Of a stretch of 11,751 nt of DNA, positions 243-11,751 are shown in pieces (positions within the stretch are counted from its first letter, which is position 1; every line of letters begins with the position of its first letter). Position numbers and translations under genes: made by a program. Under the pieces are notes generated by a model. It did no database searches and was not told the DNA's origin. It worked only from the letters and a program-made list of their open reading frames with translations. This DNA comes from a bacterium (lineage in GTDB: Bacteria; AUK180), in the NCBI GenBank assembly GCA_030622125.1, contig JAUXGM010000067.1, positions 1 to 11,751 of the forward strand, read 5' to 3'.

Positions 243-250
243 GAGGTGAG
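243..250 (+). promoter_or_regulatory. Ribosome binding site that fixes the start at 255
   Basis: GAGGTGAG lies 4 bases before the ATG at 255. An in-frame GTG at 246 falls inside this Shine-Dalgarno sequence and would almost coincide with the predicted transcript start, so the GTG start, which would add three residues, is rejected. Confidence 0.75.
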
Positions 251-254
251 AATT

Positions 255-1412
255 ATGGCAGATAAAAATCCTATAAGAGACCTTTTGTGCACAATGGTCG
301 AAAAAAAAGCTTCCGATATTCATTTGCGGGTTGGAAAAGCACCAATAATGAGAATAAACGGGGAACTTGTAACTTCTAATTTTCCCACCGTTAAAGCAAA
401 GGGAATGGCTGTTATTGCAAAATATTTTGCTGAGAGTGAAGAGAAATATGAAAAGTTCTTGCAAGAAAAAGAAATGGATATTGCCTTTGAAGAATCCGAT
501 GTTGCAAGATTTAGGGTAAATCTATTCTTTGAAAAGGGAAATATCGCCATCGTTATAAGACATATTCCTATAAATATACCTTCATTTAAAGAATTGAATC
601 TTCCCGATACTTTAAAGGAAATCACAACTATTGACAGAGGGCTTGTTCTTGTCACCGGCACCACCGGATCGGGAAAATCAACGACATTAGCTGCAATGGT
701 CGACTACATCAATCATCACACTAAAAGACACATTGTTACAATTGAGGATCCCATAGAATTTCTCCATTTTGATGCGCTCTCAGTTGTAACTCAAAGAGAG
801 ATCGGGATCGATACAAAAAATTTTCATAGTGCTTTGAAATATGTGCTCAGGCAAGATCCCGATGTCATTCTTGTTGGTGAAATGCGAGATGAGGAAACGG
901 TTGGTGCTGCAATTTCCGCAGCAGAAACCGGACACCTTGTTTTGGGAACATTGCATACCTTAAATGCCATTCAAACGATTAACCGGATCATCGATTTTTT
1001 CCCGCCGGCACATCAGGAACAGATCAGGGTACAACTTGCATTTACCTTAAAAGCAGTCATATCTATGCGCCTTTTACAAAGAATTGACATAGACGGCAGA
1101 ACTCCTGCTCTGGAACTTCTGATCGTAACGGAAAATATTAAAGAACTGATACAGGATAAGCATAGAATTGCCGAGATTTCCGATGCAATGAAGGAAGGTT
1201 CTCAATACGGGATGCAAACATTTGATCAGCACCTGATAAAACTCGTTAAAGAAGGATTAATTTCACGAGAAACCGCACGACATAATGCAAATTCTCCCAG
1301 TGACCTTGCCCTTGCTCTTAAAGGATTTACTATTCAAGGCGGGACGGATACAAAGAGCCTTGAAGAAGAAGCTAAAAGTTATGACGATGATATTACCGAT
1401 GATTTTGAATAA
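255..1412 (+). CDS. pilT: PilT/PilU-family type IV pilus retraction ATPase
   Basis: This is a cytoplasmic hexameric ATPase of the secretion-ATPase superfamily; PilT members depolymerise type IV pili and drive twitching. The 385-residue protein has the N-terminal PAS-like region opening with KKASDIHL, then Walker A GTTGSGKST (about 135-143), Asp box TIEDPIEF (about 162-169), Walker B VILVGEMRDEET (about 204-215) and His box HLVLGTLHT (about 227-235). The C-terminal GMQTFDQHL stretch is shared with PilT and PilU. The AIRNLIRE-type motif of classical PilT is diverged (ENIKELIQD). After the usual end there is a tail of about 24 residues, mostly acidic (SLEEEAKSYDDDITDDFE), not typical of the family. 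A strong promoter and Shine-Dalgarno precede it, and the helicase gene follows after 26 bases. PilT versus PilU cannot be settled; no pilB or pilC is in the window. Confidence 0.9.
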   Translation: MADKNPIRDLLCTMVEKKASDIHLRVGKAPIMRINGELVTSNFPTVKAKGMAVIAKYFAESEEKYEKFLQEKEMDIAFEESDVARFRVNLFFEKGNIAIVIRHIPINIPSFKELNLPDTLKEITTIDRGLVLVTGTTGSGKSTTLAAMVDYINHHTKRHIVTIEDPIEFLHFDALSVVTQREIGIDTKNFHSALKYVLRQDPDVILVGEMRDEETVGAAISAAETGHLVLGTLHTLNAIQTINRIIDFFPPAHQEQIRVQLAFTLKAVISMRLLQRIDIDGRTPALELLIVTENIKELIQDKHRIAEISDAMKEGSQYGMQTFDQHLIKLVKEGLISRETARHNANSPSDLALALKGFTIQGGTDTKSLEEEAKSYDDDITDDFE

Positions 1413-3616: not shown

Positions 3617-4518
3617 TGCTGAAAAAATTGTTTTCAAGATACAAACCTCAGGATTACGCTTTTAATGGGTTCATGCTTATTATAATGATACTACTTTTGG
3701 TATTTGCACCGGGCAAGGTGGCGAATTGGAATGTCTATATCATTAAAGACCTTATTTTTATTATTTTTGTGAATTTCTTGATCTATTTTTTTTCCGATGA
3801 TAAAAGCAATAAAATAGGTAAATTTTTTAGAGATTTCTATCCTCTGTTGCTTTTCTCTACTAATTATAAGGATATGGGTGATTTTGCGTTTATGATCGTT
3901 CCGACCTTACAGGATCCGATAATTACAAATTTTGAATTAAAGATCTTCGGCGTTCATCCGACATGGTGGATAGAAGAACATCTTTTTTTTAAACCGCTAA
4001 TTGAGTTTTTAACACTTGGTTATACGGCATACTATCTAATACTTCCATTACTTGCATTTTTACTCTATTTTAAAAAAAAGGACATCTATGGTTTCAATAA
4101 TCTTATTTTTACAGTAGCAATTTCATTTTATATTCACTATCTCGTGTTTATTTTACTTCCGATCGATGGTCCGTGGAGGTATGGACCGATCCTTGATCAT
4201 TTTACAAAACCGGTGGAAGGGTATTTGATCTTGGAGATTCAGAAAAAAATAATGGATTTTGGAGTAATGAAGCATAGCGGCTGTTTTCCTTCCTCGCATG
4301 TTGCTATTGCAACGATCGTTCTATTGAATGCCAGACGATTTTATAAGGGATTATTCCCGATCTATTTCATTATTGTTGTCCTGTTGTCTTTTGCAACATT
4401 CTTTTTGAGGTATCATTATCTTACCGATACGGTTGTCGGATTGCTCGTCGGAATTTTATGTTTTCTTCTGTTTTCAAGGATTTTTAAATTATGGTGGACG
4501 AAAAAGAATTTGACCTGA
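3616..4518 (+). CDS. PAP2_3-like integral membrane phosphatase/phosphotransferase
   Basis: A 300-residue polytopic membrane protein with about six hydrophobic segments (roughly 17-30, 43-58, 135-152, 162-182, 243-263 and 272-288). Catalytic signatures of the PAP2 (type 2 phosphatidic acid phosphatase) fold are present: GPWRY near 185-189 in the position of the first motif, CFPSSH with His228 for the PSGH motif, and LRYHYLTD (Arg265, His267, Asp271) for the third motif. The compact RxHxxxD and the FPSSHVAIA form match the AUR1/inositolphosphotransferase-like branch (PAP2_3) better than classical lipid phosphatases. The substrate is probably a lipid phosphate or phospholipid headgroup; which one cannot be read from sequence. 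A GGAG lies 8 bases before the ATG. It overlaps the helicase stop by 1 base and mnmG by 28 bases, so all three are likely coupled. Confidence 0.82.
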   Translation: MLKKLFSRYKPQDYAFNGFMLIIMILLLVFAPGKVANWNVYIIKDLIFIIFVNFLIYFFSDDKSNKIGKFFRDFYPLLLFSTNYKDMGDFAFMIVPTLQDPIITNFELKIFGVHPTWWIEEHLFFKPLIEFLTLGYTAYYLILPLLAFLLYFKKKDIYGFNNLIFTVAISFYIHYLVFILLPIDGPWRYGPILDHFTKPVEGYLILEIQKKIMDFGVMKHSGCFPSSHVAIATIVLLNARRFYKGLFPIYFIIVVLLSFATFFLRYHYLTDTVVGLLVGILCFLLFSRIFKLWWTKKNLT

Positions 4519-6362
4519 TCGTTGTTGGAGCCGGTCATGCCGGACTTGAAGCAGCTCTGATCGCTGATAAATTAGGGATGAAAGTCGGGCTTGTCTCTCT
4601 TTCATACAACAAGATCGGCGATATGCCGTGCAATCCTTCAATAGGCGGGATAGCAAAAGGGCATCTTGTCCGTGAGATAGACGCACTTGGCGGAGAAATG
4701 GGAAAGGCGGTTGACTATACGGGTATTCAGTTTAGAATGCTAAATAGATCAAAGGGACCTGCTGTTTGGGGACCTCGTGCACAGGCGGATAAGGAACTTT
4801 ATATAAAATATTTTCAAGACCTTTTGAAAAAGAAAAAAAATATAGAGTTCATAGGAGATGAGGTTACCGAATTAAATGAGCGGAGCTTCAAAGGTTCAAA
4901 AGAAAATGCTCCGCCAACAAGCGGGACATTCATCAAAGATGTGTGTCCCAAGACCGAAATTACCGGTGTTAGATTAAAGAACAACGGATTGATTCTTTCA
5001 AAAAAAGTGATCGTAACAACAGGAACATTTTTAAGAGGAAAATTATTTACCGGAATGAAGGCGGAAAAAGGCGGCAGATACGGTGAACCGCCGGCGGATC
5101 ATCTATCAAAGAGTATAAAAAACCTCGGACTGATAATGGGACGATTGAAAACGGGCACTCCGGCGAGGATATATAAAAATTCAATTGATTTTTCAAAAAC
5201 AGAGAGGCAGGAAGGCGATGATGATAATTTTTCATTTTCTTTTTGGCATAATAAATATATTGAAAATAAGGTCAATTGTTATATAACATATACAAATGAA
5301 AACACACATAAAATAATTAGAGAAGGGTTAAAATTTTCACCGCTCTATCAAGGGATGATTGAAGGAATAGGTCCAAGGTATTGTCCTTCGATTGAGGATA
5401 AGGTAGTAAAGTTTCCGGATAAGAAGAGACATCAAATATTTTTAGAACCCGAGGGACTAAAAAGCGATCTCATTTATCCGAATGGGATATCATCGTCCTT
5501 GCCGGCAGATTATCAGGATCGGTTTTTAAGAACATTACCTGGATTAAAAAACATTAAAATCGCAAGATACGGCTATGCCGTTGAATATGATTTTGTTCAG
5601 CCAACCGAACTTTATAAAACGCTTGAGACGAAAAAAATAAAAGGACTCTATTTTGCCGGACAGATAAACGGTACTTCTGGATATGAGGAAGCTGCTGCAC
5701 AGGGCTTGATCGCAGGAATAAATGCTGTCCTTTCCCTTTCAAATGCGCAACCGTTCATACTAAAAAGAAGTGAGGCATATATAGGGGTTTTGATCGATGA
5801 CCTTGTTTTGAAAGGGGTAACCGAGCCATACCGTTTATTTACTTCTCAGGCGGAGTACCGATTATTATTGAGGCAGGATACGGCTGATCTTCGGCTCTCC
5901 AAATATGCACTTAAATACGGATTGCTTTCAAAAAAAGAAGAGATTATCTTTGAAAATAAAATGAAAGAAAAGAATAAATTAGAAGAATTATTAAAACAGG
6001 AGAAGATAATATTAAACGGAAAGGGAATAAGATTGGCGATCTATGCAAAAAGAGATGTTACGGATGCTCAAAAAAGGTTTTTGGCGGCACATTCAGAATT
6101 TGATAAGGACCTTGTCTTTACGGTAGCAAATAATATAAAATATGAGGGTTATATTAAAAGAGAAATGGAAAAGATCAGGGATGAAGAAAAATTAAATATA
6201 AGGCTTCCCGATAATATTGATTATAACAATATTCCGTCACTAAAAAACGAAGCAAAAGAAAGATTGTCCAAGATAAGACCGAAAACATTACTTGATGCCT
6301 CTAAAATGTCGGGCATCTCAAGTGCCGACATTACCGTTTTGCTTGTGTATTTGAAGAAATGA
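4491..6362 (+). CDS. mnmG: tRNA uridine-5-carboxymethylaminomethyl modification enzyme MnmG (GidA)
   Basis: MnmG, with MnmE, uses FAD and methylene-tetrahydrofolate to build the cmnm5 group on U34 of tRNAs reading split codon boxes. The 623-residue protein has the Rossmann FAD motif GAGHAG (13-18), family signature DMPCNPSIGGIAKGHL (44-59, with Cys47), MLNRSKGPAVWGPRAQADK (83-101), TTGTFLRGK, the second conserved cysteine in GPRYCPSIEDK (near 296), the GYEEAAAQGLIAG signature and the helical C-terminal domain ending in VLLVYLKK, a little shorter than in E. coli. Residues about 130-154 form an insertion of roughly 22 residues relative to the E. coli protein as I recall it, encoded by two hairpins (4880-4949). 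The start overlaps the PAP2 gene by 28 bases and has AAGGA 10 bases upstream. Nothing suggests loss of function. Confidence 0.96.
   Translation: MVDEKEFDLIVVGAGHAGLEAALIADKLGMKVGLVSLSYNKIGDMPCNPSIGGIAKGHLVREIDALGGEMGKAVDYTGIQFRMLNRSKGPAVWGPRAQADKELYIKYFQDLLKKKKNIEFIGDEVTELNERSFKGSKENAPPTSGTFIKDVCPKTEITGVRLKNNGLILSKKVIVTTGTFLRGKLFTGMKAEKGGRYGEPPADHLSKSIKNLGLIMGRLKTGTPARIYKNSIDFSKTERQEGDDDNFSFSFWHNKYIENKVNCYITYTNENTHKIIREGLKFSPLYQGMIEGIGPRYCPSIEDKVVKFPDKKRHQIFLEPEGLKSDLIYPNGISSSLPADYQDRFLRTLPGLKNIKIARYGYAVEYDFVQPTELYKTLETKKIKGLYFAGQINGTSGYEEAAAQGLIAGINAVLSLSNAQPFILKRSEAYIGVLIDDLVLKGVTEPYRLFTSQAEYRLLLRQDTADLRLSKYALKYGLLSKKEEIIFENKMKEKNKLEELLKQEKIILNGKGIRLAIYAKRDVTDAQKRFLAAHSEFDKDLVFTVANNIKYEGYIKREMEKIRDEEKLNIRLPDNIDYNNIPSLKNEAKERLSKIRPKTLLDASKMSGISSADITVLLVYLKK
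4880..4949 (+). repeat. Pair of inverted repeats inside mnmG encoding an extra segment
   Basis: Two hairpins sit back to back. GCGGAGC (4880-4886) pairs perfectly with GCTCCGC (4908-4914). Then GGGACA (4923-4928) plus CATC (4931-4934) pair with GATG (4938-4941) plus TGTCCC (4944-4949) around an AAA loop. Together they cover MnmG residues 130-153, almost exactly the region absent from E. coli MnmG. This could be an in-frame palindromic element insertion; it could also be a chance structure in a tolerant surface loop. Confidence 0.55.
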
Positions 6363-6383
6363 GCGTATTCGCTTCGCTCATTT
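6357..6383. terminator. Bidirectional hairpin terminator shared by convergent genes
   Basis: AAATGAGCG (6357-6365) pairs perfectly with CGCTCATTT (6375-6383) around a 9-base loop. The stem contains the mnmG stop (6360-6362) and the first two transcribed bases of the minus-strand stop (TAA at 6384-6382). Short A/T tracts flank both sides. Its position between two converging genes, only 19 bases apart, supports a two-way terminator, although the U-tracts are weak. Confidence 0.65.
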
Positions 6384-7590
6384 AATTCGGTGGATTCAGA
6401 TCGGCAATTATTACATTATATTCTGTGGTATCAATTTTCATCCTTATCGGCTTATCTGCAATATAATATTCACTTCGGGAGACACGATTCTTATTAAGGT
6501 TCATATACTTTGAGAAATCCTTATATGCCATTCCGGCGTTACCACCTAATTTTACACTATTAAATGATAAAATTGAACCAGCGAAACTTTCATTTCCTGA
6601 CAATTTATTAACATCAGTATCTCCCATTACGATAATGATTCCGTCAAAATCAGGGGTACCTGTCATTGTTAAATTGCCGTAAATAACCATAACAGGAGGC
6701 GGAACCTCACCGGGATCTGAAAAATCACCATCACCATCATCTATAGTATCAACACCTCCAACATTTCCCGCCCATTTAGTTACATTTTCTTTAAAACAGT
6801 AGTTCCCCTCTAATTCTTTATTAGCATTTACATTTTCAGGGTTATTTGCAAAGGCAGTAACAAGTTGTACATCCTCCTCATAAACTCTTGTGGTACTCTC
6901 ACTACAGATATCTTTAGCCCAATCCTTTATCGCATCTTTTAAATCACTCCCCTCTGCACAGTCATCTGGTGTAAGCGAACATGATGATGTATCGGGATCG
7001 GTTACTGACACGCCACCTGAAATACCATCTGTTGCACATATCTTTCCATCAACCGAAATAGCATTAGTGGAACTTACCGACCCGCAAGCGGTTATTGCTG
7101 CATTAAAAGGATTAAATGGGATTGCCGCTCCTATCTTTGTTATAATAGTCCTTTTCTTAACAAGATGTCCATATTTAGTCGGATCTGATTTATAAAGATC
7201 GGGTTTATTCTGTGGATAATAAAAACCGGTGCATTTGATCCATATAGAGTAAGTAGTAGGATTAAAACTATTGTCGGGATTCCCTGTTACTACTGTAATC
7301 GGATTTGTGTTCGCATCCAATCTCTGGACCTTAAAATCCATCGTATCAAAATCAAATGTGTACGGATTACCGTCAGGTCCCGTTCTAAAATCCCAATCTG
7401 CATCTCGCATAAGGATATTCATTACACTATTTACACCTTCATTTGCATTATAAAGTGCAATATCCACTGCCTTTGAATGTTTGGCAGAGGTGCTGAAGCT
7501 CTTTATCACCCCGATATAGATAAGTGACAGCATCTCAACACCTGCAAGAATAATAAGAACAACAATTAAGATTGATCCTTTCTTTTTCAT
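6382..7590 (-). CDS. PilX/GspK-like minor prepilin
   Basis: A 402-residue protein with a type III (prepilin) signal: MKKKG followed by SILIVVLIILAGVEML, a hydrophobic helix (about 6-29) that would be cleaved after Gly5. The mature protein has Val rather than Glu at position 5, a trait of the PilX/GspK class at pilus tips. The stretch ALYNANEGVNSVM after the helix is typical of PilX N-termini. The C-terminal third has YGNLTMTGTPDFDGIIIVMGD (about 304-324) followed by further G-rich beta-strand units, a pattern seen in PilX-like proteins of other bacteria. An acidic DDGDGDFSDPGE loop (284-295) looks able to bind calcium. Nine cysteines are visible. It is third in an I-J-K-like operon, 11 bases after the GspJ/PilW-like gene, with AAGGAGGT 3 bases from the ATG. 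Exact family membership and partner proteins are inferred. Confidence 0.78.
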   Translation of the reverse strand: MKKKGSILIVVLIILAGVEMLSLIYIGVIKSFSTSAKHSKAVDIALYNANEGVNSVMNILMRDADWDFRTGPDGNPYTFDFDTMDFKVQRLDANTNPITVVTGNPDNSFNPTTYSIWIKCTGFYYPQNKPDLYKSDPTKYGHLVKKRTIITKIGAAIPFNPFNAAITACGSVSSTNAISVDGKICATDGISGGVSVTDPDTSSCSLTPDDCAEGSDLKDAIKDWAKDICSESTTRVYEEDVQLVTAFANNPENVNANKELEGNYCFKENVTKWAGNVGGVDTIDDGDGDFSDPGEVPPPVMVIYGNLTMTGTPDFDGIIIVMGDTDVNKLSGNESFAGSILSFNSVKLGGNAGMAYKDFSKYMNLNKNRVSRSEYYIADKPIRMKIDTTEYNVIIADLNPPN

Positions 7591-7593
7591 AGT

Positions 7594-7601
7594 ACCTCCT
7601 T
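7594..7601 (-). promoter_or_regulatory. Strong Shine-Dalgarno of the PilX/GspK-like gene
   Basis: On the minus strand AAGGAGGT is a full anti-SD match, 3 bases before the ATG at 7590-7588 and just after the TAG of the preceding gene (7604-7602). It supports the chosen start, where the prepilin signal MKKKG begins. Confidence 0.8.
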
Positions 7602-8330
7602 CTATTTTTTTATAGTAAATGTAAATTTTCTTATTGTGCCGTGATTATAGACATCGAAATGCCCCGCATCTTCTATATGCTTTGCTCTATGAAGATAGAC
7701 TCTGACACCAATGGAACAATTTAATATACGATCATTTGTAGTATCAGGTATGATCTCAACCTTTCTTATATAAAGCCGAGGCTCTTTTGCAGTGAACCGC
7801 ATTACTTTTAATTGGGATAATCCCAGATAATCATGATACTCAATGGATACAAAATTACTTTCCTTTGTCGGAATTTTATTTGCGTCAACATTTGAAATGC
7901 CAAGTGCCCTATAAAAATCAGGTGAACTAGAACATTCAAAGGGATTATCAAACTTGAATAAAAGTAATATTAGAACACTATTGAATCCGCTTATAAATTC
8001 GGTATCACCGGGAAAGACGGTAGTAATATCAGAAAATCCTCTTTGAAAAGTATTTGATGCATTTACGATATTTTTGGTAATATGTCCGCTTGCAGTAAGA
8101 AGAAATGGTGTGGTAACTCCTGATTGCCTTTTTATTGAAGTAGCAGAAGCATAAGATCTTGTCATTCCTTGAATTACCTCATCAATAAATTGCTCTCCCA
8201 ATGCTTCCGATTTTTTCTTTGCAATGCCATTGGTTATTGTATTGTAAGAAGCATAGATCATTGTTAATACCAACCCGGATATTGCAACGGCAATCAAAAG
8301 CTCAAGAAGTGTAAAACCTTTTCTTTTCAT
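7602..8330 (-). CDS. PilW/GspJ-like minor prepilin
   Basis: A 242-residue prepilin. The signal MKRKG precedes FTLLELLIAVAISGLVLTMI, giving Phe1 and Glu5 in the mature protein after predicted cleavage by a PilD-type prepilin peptidase, then the hydrophobic N-terminal helix that packs in the filament core. The remaining residues (about 40-242) show no motif I recognise. Length and operon position after a GspI/PilV-like gene and before a GspK/PilX-like gene match GspJ or PilW, minor subunits that help prime assembly at the tip. The gene begins 11 bases after the large prepilin gene, with AAGGAGGT overlapping that gene's stop codon, so translation is likely coupled. Assignment to pilus or secretion pseudopilus is open. 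Confidence 0.82.
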   Translation of the reverse strand: MKRKGFTLLELLIAVAISGLVLTMIYASYNTITNGIAKKKSEALGEQFIDEVIQGMTRSYASATSIKRQSGVTTPFLLTASGHITKNIVNASNTFQRGFSDITTVFPGDTEFISGFNSVLILLLFKFDNPFECSSSPDFYRALGISNVDANKIPTKESNFVSIEYHDYLGLSQLKVMRFTAKEPRLYIRKVEIIPDTTNDRILNCSIGVRVYLHRAKHIEDAGHFDVYNHGTIRKFTFTIKK

Positions 8331-8335
8331 ATTAT

Positions 8336-8343
8336 ACCTCCTT
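8336..8343 (-). promoter_or_regulatory. Strong Shine-Dalgarno of the PilW/GspJ-like gene overlapping the upstream stop
   Basis: On the minus strand the sequence reads TAAGGAGGTATAATATG: the stop codon of the 958-residue gene shares two bases with AAGGAGGT, and the next ATG follows after 5 bases. This favours ribosome re-initiation and matched synthesis of the two prepilins. Confidence 0.8.
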
Positions 8344-11218
8344 AATTACAACACCCGCCCGACGGTGGTCCTGTGCAAATTACATTTGTAGCAGCATTGG
8401 CTGTATTTCCGACACTATCGGTTACTGTAAGGGTAGCACTATATATAGCAGCTGTATTGTTTTTATAACTATGGTTAGTGGTTACCTCACCTGTTGAGTC
8501 ATTCCATTCATATATGTCTCCATCACCAAATTCTATATGGTATGTAAGCGTAGCATCATCGGTATCACTGGTTGTAATAATAAAAACAACGCCGTAGGAA
8601 TCAGCCGTATTCTGACTACAATTAAATACAGTTATCTCAGGAGGGACATTACTTCCTTCGGTTGGATACAATGTGATCCGACAGGTATCCGTATCGGATG
8701 AATGACTATCCCATACGGTTAAGGTTACATCAAAGATAGCAGGGGCGGTATCCGGGTCTCCTGTATCTTTTAAATTTAAGTAATCGGTATAGGTATAGGT
8801 ATGATATGCCGTAGCACCGGTAGCAGTTTCACCATCTGCAAAATTCCATTCATAATCGGTGATATCATTATCACAATCCGCCGACATTCTTCCCTCAAAG
8901 AAGACACTTGCATTTACAGTAGTTACTTTATCGGTACCGGCATTTGCGTTGGGCGGATAATACAACCCTGTTGTTTTTGTACTAAATATAAATTCGTTAT
9001 CACATTTATATTCCTTTGATTGATCGGATTGGAAGATCAGATCAAAATCACATTCTTTAATGCTAAACGGTATCGCCTGATAGGGATTATCCGTTTGTTT
9101 ATCCATAAAATGAATGCTTATCGTTACCTCTCTTCCATATCCACTTATGAGAAGTGCGTCCGGATCTACCTTATTAAAATAGAGAGTTATCGGACCTCTG
9201 TCTCTTGTACCCGGTGTCGGTTCATCTCTATTCCAATCCCAGATCACATTTCTTTTATAATCGGAAGCATCGGAGTTTTGCGATTCAAGTGTTATAGTGT
9301 CAACATAAGGAAATGCTACGGAGGTATCACCTGTTGAAAGACATATATTCTTATAAGCCGGTTCTTTTAAATATAAACTATCTAAATAAATATCTCCATC
9401 TCGATAATTTTTAAGCGAAATCGTAACGGTATCATTATAGGGAGGATAATCAGTGTCTATATCAGTATCAATACTCTCTGTAGCATACCATAAGGCATTC
9501 CCTTGATGGATTACCTTGAACTCCTCCCCCTTATAAGTATTAGGGTTCCAGTTTTCCAATCCCTTACTATCACGAGCATAGGTTCTAAAATAAAAATCAT
9601 TTCTTGAATCCCCTGGTGGAAAGTCGTATTTTACATTATACCAATTTGGTTGGGTGGCGGTAAGATCAAATGACTTTGTAACAGTAACGGCACCGGTGGT
9701 CTTGGAAAGGGTTGAAAATTCCATTAGATCAAGTCCACATTCATCTACGGCATCAAAATCAATCGGGATATTATCTCCACCACCATGAGGGACACAATCC
9801 TGAAAGCCGTTTCCATCGTAGTTTAATACAATAAGAGGCGGATTGATATCTATTTCAGATACCGTTATATCCGTTGTACCATCCCATTCAAGGATAGGTA
9901 TGGTAGTGCTGTTTCCACATTTATCATAAGCGGTAATTTTATAGTAAAGATCGGGTTTATCATCATAAGGTAGAGCATAAGGATCTATGCCGGAATGATT
10001 TTTAATATAATTCCCGTCTATTTCCCATACAAATCTTCCCTCTGCATCCGGTACGCCTATTTGCGGTGCACCTCCCACAAGTGTGCGAACACCTGCACCA
10101 TCTATCGTTCCATACTCCGCTTTTGTAAGAGAGAGATTTAATCCACCTTTCCCGTTTGCCCCATCCAGTATCTTTGCAAGTATAAGTCCGTTGCAGCCAT
10201 TTGCGACTATTCTACTTGAATAATCAATAATCGTAGGTGGTTCAAAGTCCGCAACATTTTTATAGATCGTATCGGAGGATGTTTTCCTTTCTGTAACATT
10301 TTTACAATTCGGACCGATATAATCATCCTTTGCATCAACCCTGAAAAACATATCATAATCGGTACCACTTCCATCTTCTATACAATCGGCATCTCTGTTT
10401 TGTATTTCGGAACCGGGAATATCCGCCGTATATGTGAGTAAACTGCCGGATGATTCCATTTCAATCTCTTTTGCATCGGCAAATGCTCCATTCGGATCAG
10501 TATCACTAAAATACCAATAGTAAAGTGTTAATGTAGGAAGTTTAACACATTCATCCTTTATGGTTGCTTTTACGGTATAATTCTGGGATACATTTAATGG
10601 GGTATCATTTGGAATTATCTCAACAGAGGCTATGGTTGGTGGATTACAACACGCCTTACTTTGCGGGTTGTAACTTGAAATTACAGTAGATAAAGAAAAA
10701 TACCTCATTCGGTTTTTCTTTATATAAGTCTGATTATTTGAAAATAATGCATTTAATACCTCACCTTCCGTAAATTTTCTTTTCGCCGATGGCCAGGCAA
10801 CCGTTACCGTAACCTCCTTCATATCCATTCCCTGACCGGTATTGTCATCGTATTTATCATTATCGGTATCTATAAAATCCATTATTTTATATTTACCGCC
10901 GGCATATTGAGTAACGACAAATTTTACTTTTTCCTGAACAAAGTAGGGTCTTGATAAATTAATTCCCATTTGACTGTATATTGGGTTTTTATTTTCATAA
11001 GTCCAAATCACATCGGAAATAGCAAGAAAATTTGTTTTTGCATTTGCTTCAATACTATCAATATGAGTTTTTGCTATCAACTTCGCTTCATTCTTATGAA
11101 TAAGCGATCTGCTTTCATTTCCAACAACAAGTATCGTTCTCATTACTGCAAAAAGACCAATCGTAACGATACTAATTGCAACTAAAAGTTCGATTAAGGT
11201 CGTACCTCTTCGCTTCAT
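8342..11218 (-). CDS. Giant modular PilV/GspI-like prepilin with C-terminal PKD domains
   Basis: A 958-residue protein starting with prepilin signal MKRRG then TTLIELLVAISIVTIGLFAV, so the mature protein has Thr1 and Glu5. Residues 6 to about 175 resemble a PilV/GspI-type minor pilin, including a DTDNDKYDD acidic loop (117-125). From the CC pair at 190-191 a long ectodomain begins. Three segments opening with PPTI or PPLI (193, 327, 460) look like divergent beta-sandwich repeats ending in a YxxxAxD-type strand. An unassigned beta-rich part (about 570-750) follows. Two PKD-like domains close the protein: 755-850 (YEWNFADGE, YHTYTY, VTLTVWD) and 859-948 (HIEFGDGD, NHSYKN, ATLTVTD). It ends in GGCCN. 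Eighteen cysteines are present. GspI/PilV proteins are normally under about 200 residues, so this is a large fusion. PKD domains usually mediate surface or protein contacts; a tip-adhesin role is inferred. It is first in the three-gene operon, after AGGAGG. Confidence 0.85.
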   Translation of the reverse strand: MKRRGTTLIELLVAISIVTIGLFAVMRTILVVGNESRSLIHKNEAKLIAKTHIDSIEANAKTNFLAISDVIWTYENKNPIYSQMGINLSRPYFVQEKVKFVVTQYAGGKYKIMDFIDTDNDKYDDNTGQGMDMKEVTVTVAWPSAKRKFTEGEVLNALFSNNQTYIKKNRMRYFSLSTVISSYNPQSKACCNPPTIASVEIIPNDTPLNVSQNYTVKATIKDECVKLPTLTLYYWYFSDTDPNGAFADAKEIEMESSGSLLTYTADIPGSEIQNRDADCIEDGSGTDYDMFFRVDAKDDYIGPNCKNVTERKTSSDTIYKNVADFEPPTIIDYSSRIVANGCNGLILAKILDGANGKGGLNLSLTKAEYGTIDGAGVRTLVGGAPQIGVPDAEGRFVWEIDGNYIKNHSGIDPYALPYDDKPDLYYKITAYDKCGNSTTIPILEWDGTTDITVSEIDINPPLIVLNYDGNGFQDCVPHGGGDNIPIDFDAVDECGLDLMEFSTLSKTTGAVTVTKSFDLTATQPNWYNVKYDFPPGDSRNDFYFRTYARDSKGLENWNPNTYKGEEFKVIHQGNALWYATESIDTDIDTDYPPYNDTVTISLKNYRDGDIYLDSLYLKEPAYKNICLSTGDTSVAFPYVDTITLESQNSDASDYKRNVIWDWNRDEPTPGTRDRGPITLYFNKVDPDALLISGYGREVTISIHFMDKQTDNPYQAIPFSIKECDFDLIFQSDQSKEYKCDNEFIFSTKTTGLYYPPNANAGTDKVTTVNASVFFEGRMSADCDNDITDYEWNFADGETATGATAYHTYTYTDYLNLKDTGDPDTAPAIFDVTLTVWDSHSSDTDTCRITLYPTEGSNVPPEITVFNCSQNTADSYGVVFIITTSDTDDATLTYHIEFGDGDIYEWNDSTGEVTTNHSYKNNTAAIYSATLTVTDSVGNTANAATNVICTGPPSGGCCN

Positions 11219-11306: not shown

Positions 11307-11751
11307 TTACCATTTGTCAAGTAAATTTTGAACAATTTTCGTGGAAATTTTCTCAAGTGCTTCACGAATTCCATCCTCTTCACTATTTTGTTCGTCCCTT
11401 TCCGGATAGTAAAATCCGAAATCGGAGATCTCTCCTTTTTTTAGAATTTCTTCCTTGAAATTGAGTTTATAATCGATGCTAATAGCCATTTTGTATTGCA
11501 GCGGTTTATTGTTACTGTCAAAAAGCGTGGGGACCTTTTTTATTTCCAGAACATTGATCGTTAATTTGGATTTAGAGGTTCCGACCTTAATCCCCCCTTT
11601 ATAAAATTCATTTTCCAAGACCTCTTCAAATTTTTCCGAAACACTGAAATAGCCCTTATTCTCAATATTTTCAATGTAAACCTTATGTTCGCCCGAGACC
11701 AATACATTACCGAATTGGTAGCCGCAGCCGGAAAGTAAGAGGATGAGAAAA
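11307..11751 (-). CDS. lptE: LptE-like LPS-assembly outer-membrane lipoprotein, 5' end cut by the window
   Basis: LptE is the outer-membrane lipoprotein that plugs and supports LptD during lipopolysaccharide insertion. The open frame continues off the right edge: the first in-window residues are FLILLLSGCGYQFG, so a signal-peptide core and lipobox LSGC are visible, with the acylated Cys at 11724-11726. GCGYQFG directly after the lipobox is characteristic of the LptE family. About 139 mature residues follow, with alternating beta strands (INVLEI, MAISIDYKLNF) and a final helix (EDGIREALEKISTKIVQNLLDKW), the family's usual layout. A TTG at 11702 is not the true start, since the lipobox lies upstream in frame. 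Neighbouring genes upstream are outside the window. The prepilin operon follows on the same strand after 88 bases with its own candidate promoter. Confidence 0.8.
   Translation of the reverse strand, partial: FLILLLSGCGYQFGNVLVSGEHKVYIENIENKGYFSVSEKFEEVLENEFYKGGIKVGTSKSKLTINVLEIKKVPTLFDSNNKPLQYKMAISIDYKLNFKEEILKKGEISDFGFYYPERDEQNSEEDGIREALEKISTKIVQNLLDKW

Follow-up and report, generated by a model that had tools for sequence, protein, structure and literature searches.

A giant modular minor pilin of the I/PilV type in Mcinerneyibacteriota

The giant pilin gene and its neighbours

Analysis of the window (the whole stretch of 11,751 nucleotides), which comes from an uncultured member of the candidate phylum Mcinerneyibacteriota, revealed a minus-strand gene for a 958-residue pilin at exactly the coordinates that the first-pass annotation had given, 8342-11218. 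The genes and features of the window are as follows.

246..1412, plus strand: PilT-type retraction ATPase, 388 aa (PF00437, E 3.2e-49), on the same contig and the strand opposite to the giant pilin
6382..7590, minus strand: PilX/GspK-like minor pilin, 402 aa, without Glu5 (KKKG/SILIVVLIIL), recognised from its N-terminus, operon position and orthologues 30-50% identical
7602..8330, minus strand: PilW/GspJ-like minor pilin, 242 aa, with Glu5 (N_methyl E 1.5e-8; TIGR02532), conserved as the next gene in five other genomes
8342..11218, minus strand: giant modular minor pilin of the I/PilV type, 958 aa (ORF with ATG start; N_methyl, PKD_4, PKD and PilV/GspI models; orthologues)
10664..11218, minus strand: prepilin leader and predicted GspI-like pilin module, residues 1-185 (AlphaFold2; structural matches to XcpV/GspI and EpsI)
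8960..10663, minus strand: ectodomain stalk D1-D4, residues 186-753, modelled as about four Ig/FnIII-like beta-sandwiches with approximate boundaries (model, VIA-align rows, hhalign of D1 and D2, invariant Cys)
8663..8956, minus strand: PKD domain 1, residues 755-852 (Pfam PKD_4 at 755-809; collagenase PKD chains by phmmer)
8345..8662, minus strand: PKD domain 2 and Cys-containing C-terminus, residues 853-958 (second PKD stretch; 6aem_A match)
11307..11750, minus strand: LptE-like lipoprotein gene with its start truncated by the contig end (PF04390, E 1.5e-6; leuS-lptE-giant pilin order in relatives), the first flanking gene of the conserved block

The giant pilin is encoded together with J- and K-type minor pilins, a mark of I subunits, and five further genomes share this arrangement with the window, keeping the order giant pilin-pilW-pilX. 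The longer order leuS-lptE-giant pilin-pilW-like-pilX/GspK-like holds as far as the contigs extend. The 402-residue PilX/GspK-like protein had no family match in the domain and NCBIfam searches. As to a phage or plasmid origin of the giant pilin gene, no PHROG match and no plasmid match was obtained.

Other contigs carry further pilus machinery. Contig C117 encodes PilN and PilO together with a PilQ-like secretin and a single PilC platform protein. A major pilin is encoded on C14, where the beginning of a prepilin-peptidase-like ORF comes next. The pil operon of C117 contains two secretin-domain ORFs (L037, 1504-2772 and 3740-6229), a short one of 423 aa between pilN and pilO and the PilQ-like one of 830 aa. 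Four PilB-size and two PilT-size T2SSE ATPase ORFs, the PilT of the window included, were counted in the same genome (G000), while only one PilC/GspF platform protein was found per family genome. Separate from the C117 operon, a second pilin cluster was detected on contig C178 (L038, about 4064-8998, minus strand), comprising proteins of PilN/O size, a GspK-like ORF, small GspI-like and GspJ-like pilins and a GspD/PilQ-like secretin. From LptE and the secretins, the organism appears to be diderm.

The pilin module and the arm

The giant pilin has the canonical prepilin N-terminus that had been read from the sequence (MKRRG/TTLIELLVAI, with Gly at -1 and Glu at +5 of the mature protein; the slash marks the end of the leader). 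Its class III signal peptide consists of a basic leader up to the Gly and a hydrophobic stretch with Glu5 (MKRRG/TTLIELLVAISIVTIGLFAVM), and G5 and E10 are invariant across the six giant-pilin orthologues. The N_methyl model PF07963 scored above cut-off in the genome search (27.9 bits) and slightly under it by hmmscan (20.0 vs 21.2). The PilV model TIGR02523 (residues 4-62, E 9.7e-5) and the GspI model TIGR01707 (residues 5-56, E 2.2e-4) both gave sub-threshold matches, with scores below the curated NCBIfam cut-offs (22.9 vs 52.2 and 21.7 vs 44.35, respectively). By these profile matches the protein is classed as I/PilV-like, and, as the curated cut-offs were not reached, it is not filed as an equivalog.

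When residues 1-185 were folded alone (AlphaFold2, five sequences), a pilin model with a mean pLDDT of 84.6 was obtained, in which a long alpha1 helix (residues 8-66) lies on an antiparallel sheet of four strands (93-106, 109-114, 133-143 and 171-181), as in type IV pilins. The lack of a pilin fold at the N-terminus, which the first-pass annotation had named as a point on which its reading could fail, was therefore not seen. The four top VIA-align rows were XcpV (5bw0_F, Z 8.0; 9a1f_R, 7.8; 5vtm_V, 7.6) and EpsI (2ret_A, Z 7.5), with rmsd values of 2.4-3.1 over 83-114 residues, and the next row had a Z of 4.6; that these chains are XcpV and EpsI, and not their partner chains, was judged from chain lengths and entry titles. 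Because Z values of 7.5-8.0 are middling by VIA-align's own note, the assignment to the GspI family is based on the gap to the unrelated rows and not on the values themselves. Plain Foldseek gave nothing significant for the pilin module (best E 0.3), and the GspI chains were separated only by VIA-align. Residues 1-185 are thus predicted to have the I-subunit (GspI-type) fold; with GspI-family pseudopilins as the only strong structural matches and a V-W-X operon setting, the GspI/PilV-like N-terminus proposed earlier is well founded.

In the full-length model, which is of low overall confidence (pLDDT 61, pTM 0.39; residues 190-950 mostly pLDDT 50-80), residues 190-950 were modelled as successive Ig/FnIII-like beta-sandwiches with two PKD domains at the end. 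VIA-align rows over residues 190-576 were generic Ig/FnIII strings. With the full model, Foldseek matches were likewise confined to generic Ig/FnIII strings, for example complement and receptor ectodomains, at low TM-scores; D1-D4 are therefore left without a specific fold assignment. The two C-terminal PKD domains were found by Pfam (PKD_4, E 2.8e-20, two stretches; PKD, E 3.7e-13), an extra non-pilin module in the same ORF being a feature of modular pilins. PKD1 and PKD2 are alike (hhalign E 1.7e-7), and PKD2 matches PKD1 of Vibrio anguillarum Epp (6aem_A; VIA-align Z 10.6, 26% identity over 84 residues). Model and Pfam together support a beta-sandwich and PKD ectodomain on a modular minor pilin of the GspI/PilV type, as first described, whereas the description of the arm as Cys-bearing repeats stood only in part: 11 Cys are invariant in the six orthologues and D1 (186-328) is weakly related to D2 (324-462; hhalign E 3e-4), yet neither D3 nor D4 can be recognised as a repeat. 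In the giant pilin of the window, the PF05567 beta-propeller domain had no match.

In four orthologues (L012, L013, L014 and L015), PKD1 is separated from PKD2 by two to four Asp-rich repeats (CxNGxDDDGDGxxDCxDxDC). Repeats of this type (CDNGxDDDGDGxxDCxDPDC) are absent from the window protein and from the class-level L016. By likeness to other Asp-rich repeats, they could bind calcium or another metal, and they are a possible metal-binding spacer by which the length of the arm is tuned.

Giant pilins in other genomes and the distribution of PilY1

The giant pilin is present in every Mcinerneyibacteriota genome searched (n=7). The same fused protein was identified in four of four other family genomes (44-47% identity over the whole alignment) and in both class genomes (29% over the whole alignment in G005, 35% in a local match in G006). 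The first-pass annotation had proposed comparing homologues for the prepilin plus PKD arrangement and the gene order, and the six relatives of family and class share the first, and the second as far as their contigs extend. An in-frame TGA splits the orthologue of G006, a genome 72% complete, into ORFs of 344 and 496 aa (L006, 1117-3726); this TGA is either a sequencing error or a real disruption.

PilY1 had been described as absent, and PF05567 was indeed undetected genome-wide and in all relatives searched (0/7 Mcinerneyibacteriota genomes, two of them only 72-80% complete). Since the 14 control genomes gave no match either, a search of 290 genomes was used as positive control instead. The same search matched 43 of these (30 over the curated cut-off), so the absence of PilY1 is informative, though not proof. 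Among the 92 genomes matching the pilin-module profile, PilY1 was found in 0/12 genomes with giant I-pilins and in 12/80 others. This anticorrelation is not significant (Fisher p = 0.35 for 92 genomes, 1.0 by clades), because PilY1 is also present in only 12 of the 80 genomes without giant I-pilins. In nine genomes with a PilV-like match near a PilY1 match on the same contig, the PilV frames were 142-307 aa long.

The pilin profile also detected giant I/PilV-type pilins in a family represented by G120 and G257 (about 1,160 aa), in another represented by G092 and G232 (about 780-790 aa, with a second pilin of 1,005 aa) and in G244 (1,040 aa). Those of G092 and G232 carry Big_5 Ig-like domains, and most giant-pilin genes of other groups adjoin pilW- or pilX-type minor-pilin genes. 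The second giant PilV-like pilin of G232 (L065, 7072-12001; 1,005 aa) has Big_5 and Big_13 Ig-like domains and its own pilW/pilX-like genes, which are divergent from the first set on the same contig. Two other long frames were discarded, one in G235 (2,766-aa ORF), whose start is not that of an I-type pilin, and one in G200, a spurious frame in GC-rich DNA. The giant I/PilV design is therefore not unique, as it recurs in three other family-level groups. The arms of these groups may be unrelated to that of the window protein, and the design could have more than one origin. Accordingly, the architecture that the first-pass annotation did not recognise is unusual in having the I subunit as carrier and less so in other respects, modular pilins being widespread and giant PilV-type pilins occurring in the three other groups.

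Proposed function and comparison with known systems

Among minor pilins, the I subunit binds to both J and K, initiates assembly and assists in presenting effectors at the tip, and these effectors are PilY1 in diderm models and the modular PilB and PilC in Streptococcus sanguinis (PMC9934059). The effector role in diderm T4aP and S. sanguinis falls to PilY1 or to other modular pilins, and not to I (PMC10191384). Modular pilins comprise more than 1,200 proteins in 264 architectures (PMC8179133); a PKD-bearing minor pilin was not found in the literature searched. That the giant pilin is a modular minor pilin, a known kind, is well supported. What sets it apart is its carrier: the effector arm is borne by the I subunit, which is presumed to nucleate the tip complex.

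From this anatomy (prepilin motif, predicted fold, arm and operon), we infer a position at the tip, adhesion and replacement of PilY1. In the proposed mechanism, prepilin peptidase would cleave the giant pilin after Gly5, and the pilin module would join the PilW-like (J) and PilX-like (K) proteins in the inner membrane as an I-J-K complex that starts the filament. The string of beta-sandwiches and PKD domains, about 770 residues long, would stand out from the tip as an arm for adhesion or ligand binding and lead the filament as it extends through the secretin. Its Ig and PKD domains would contact the ligand, the arm performing at the tip what PilY1 performs in other diderms. We give a probability of roughly 70% to this reading, in which a modular I subunit assembles with J and K at the tip and its adhesive or ligand-binding arm takes over from PilY1. 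The giant pilin would then probably be a built-in adhesive tip for pili without PilY1.

The strongest alternative, still an unlikely one, is that the arm is a spacer or scaffold and not an adhesin, serving to place or shield the tip or as a docking site for a ligand-binding protein that is secreted separately. The arm shows only generic Ig, FnIII and PKD folds, with no ligand-binding site, binding module or known adhesin family recognised; the Asp-rich repeats alter its length between the PKD domains in four orthologues, as in a stalk, and CofB, which is thought to dock CofJ (PMC8179133), provides a precedent. However, no separate secreted gene is conserved beside the operon in the relatives, and the arm is 33-56% identical per segment over residues 186-852 within the family, a degree of conservation that points to more than a spacer. 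The lowest identity (29-37%) is that of the last PKD domain, as might be expected of a ligand-facing end, although this is a weak point.

It is considerably less probable that the protein belongs to a type II secretion-like system as a pseudopilin, with the role of the GspI-like subunit in a secretion pseudopilus and an arm for cargo recruitment. The closest structures are XcpV and EpsI of type II secretion, but these do not decide between the two systems, because their I subunits share the fold. The GspI model scores about equal to the PilV model, and there are several secretins in the genome; yet PilT-type ATPases, PilN, PilO and a PilQ-like secretin are present, a single platform protein was found per family genome, and the separate C178 cluster already supplies small GspI/J-like pilins and a secretin of its own. 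An artefact, in which a short pilin gene was joined to an unrelated PKD gene by a frameshift or assembly join (the other point on which the first-pass reading could have failed), was rejected as next to impossible, since assemblies from five other family or class genera have the same fusion, GC and GC3 are even along the gene, and the sole broken copy, that of the 72% complete G006, lends it no support.

If the I subunit does serve as an adhesive tip effector, a further step, which we put forward tentatively and consider somewhat doubtful, is that this holds phylum-wide, the jobs of PilV and PilY1 being done by one polypeptide whose arm length is tuned by the Asp-rich repeats between the PKD domains. 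Throughout this candidate phylum of diderm bacteria, each pilus would then have its own adhesin as the subunit that starts it. A phylum-wide I subunit with a giant arm, in diderms without detectable PilY1, would be another way to equip a pilus tip. It would also offer a simple test of tip-complex priming, as assembly and adhesion would hang on one gene. The giant pilin moreover adds a concrete surface protein to Mcinerneyibacteriota, a phylum scarcely mentioned in the literature searched.

Compared with known systems, the giant pilin has familiar parts on an unusual carrier subunit. It resembles the modular type IV pilins of S. sanguinis (PilB with a vWA module, PilC with Ig-like and lectin modules; PMC8179133, PMC9934059) in its class III signal peptide, pilin module and grafted modules, and PilC shares an Ig-like domain with its arm. 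In S. sanguinis, however, PilA, the I-type pilin, is small and other subunits bear the grafted modules, while here the I-type module bears the arm of about 770 aa; unlike the S. sanguinis modular pilins, it also comes from a host that appears diderm. With GspI/XcpV/EpsI and PilV it shares the predicted fold (residues 1-185), the prepilin motif and the operon position before J- and K-type genes, but the known members are small, whereas the giant pilin runs about 770 residues further and scores below the curated NCBIfam cut-offs. The PilC/PilY1 tip adhesin is likewise a large effector presumed to be displayed on the minor-pilin tip complex; PilY1, however, is a separate non-pilin protein with a beta-propeller, and the effector of the giant pilin is covalently part of the pilin and without PF05567. 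CofB/TcpB, ComZ and GspK are also minor pilins that carry additional domains and are located, or proposed to be located, at the filament tip; they differ in the carrier subunit and in the domains that it carries, which are beta-repeat and beta-sandwich, beta-solenoid and alpha-domain (PMC8179133).
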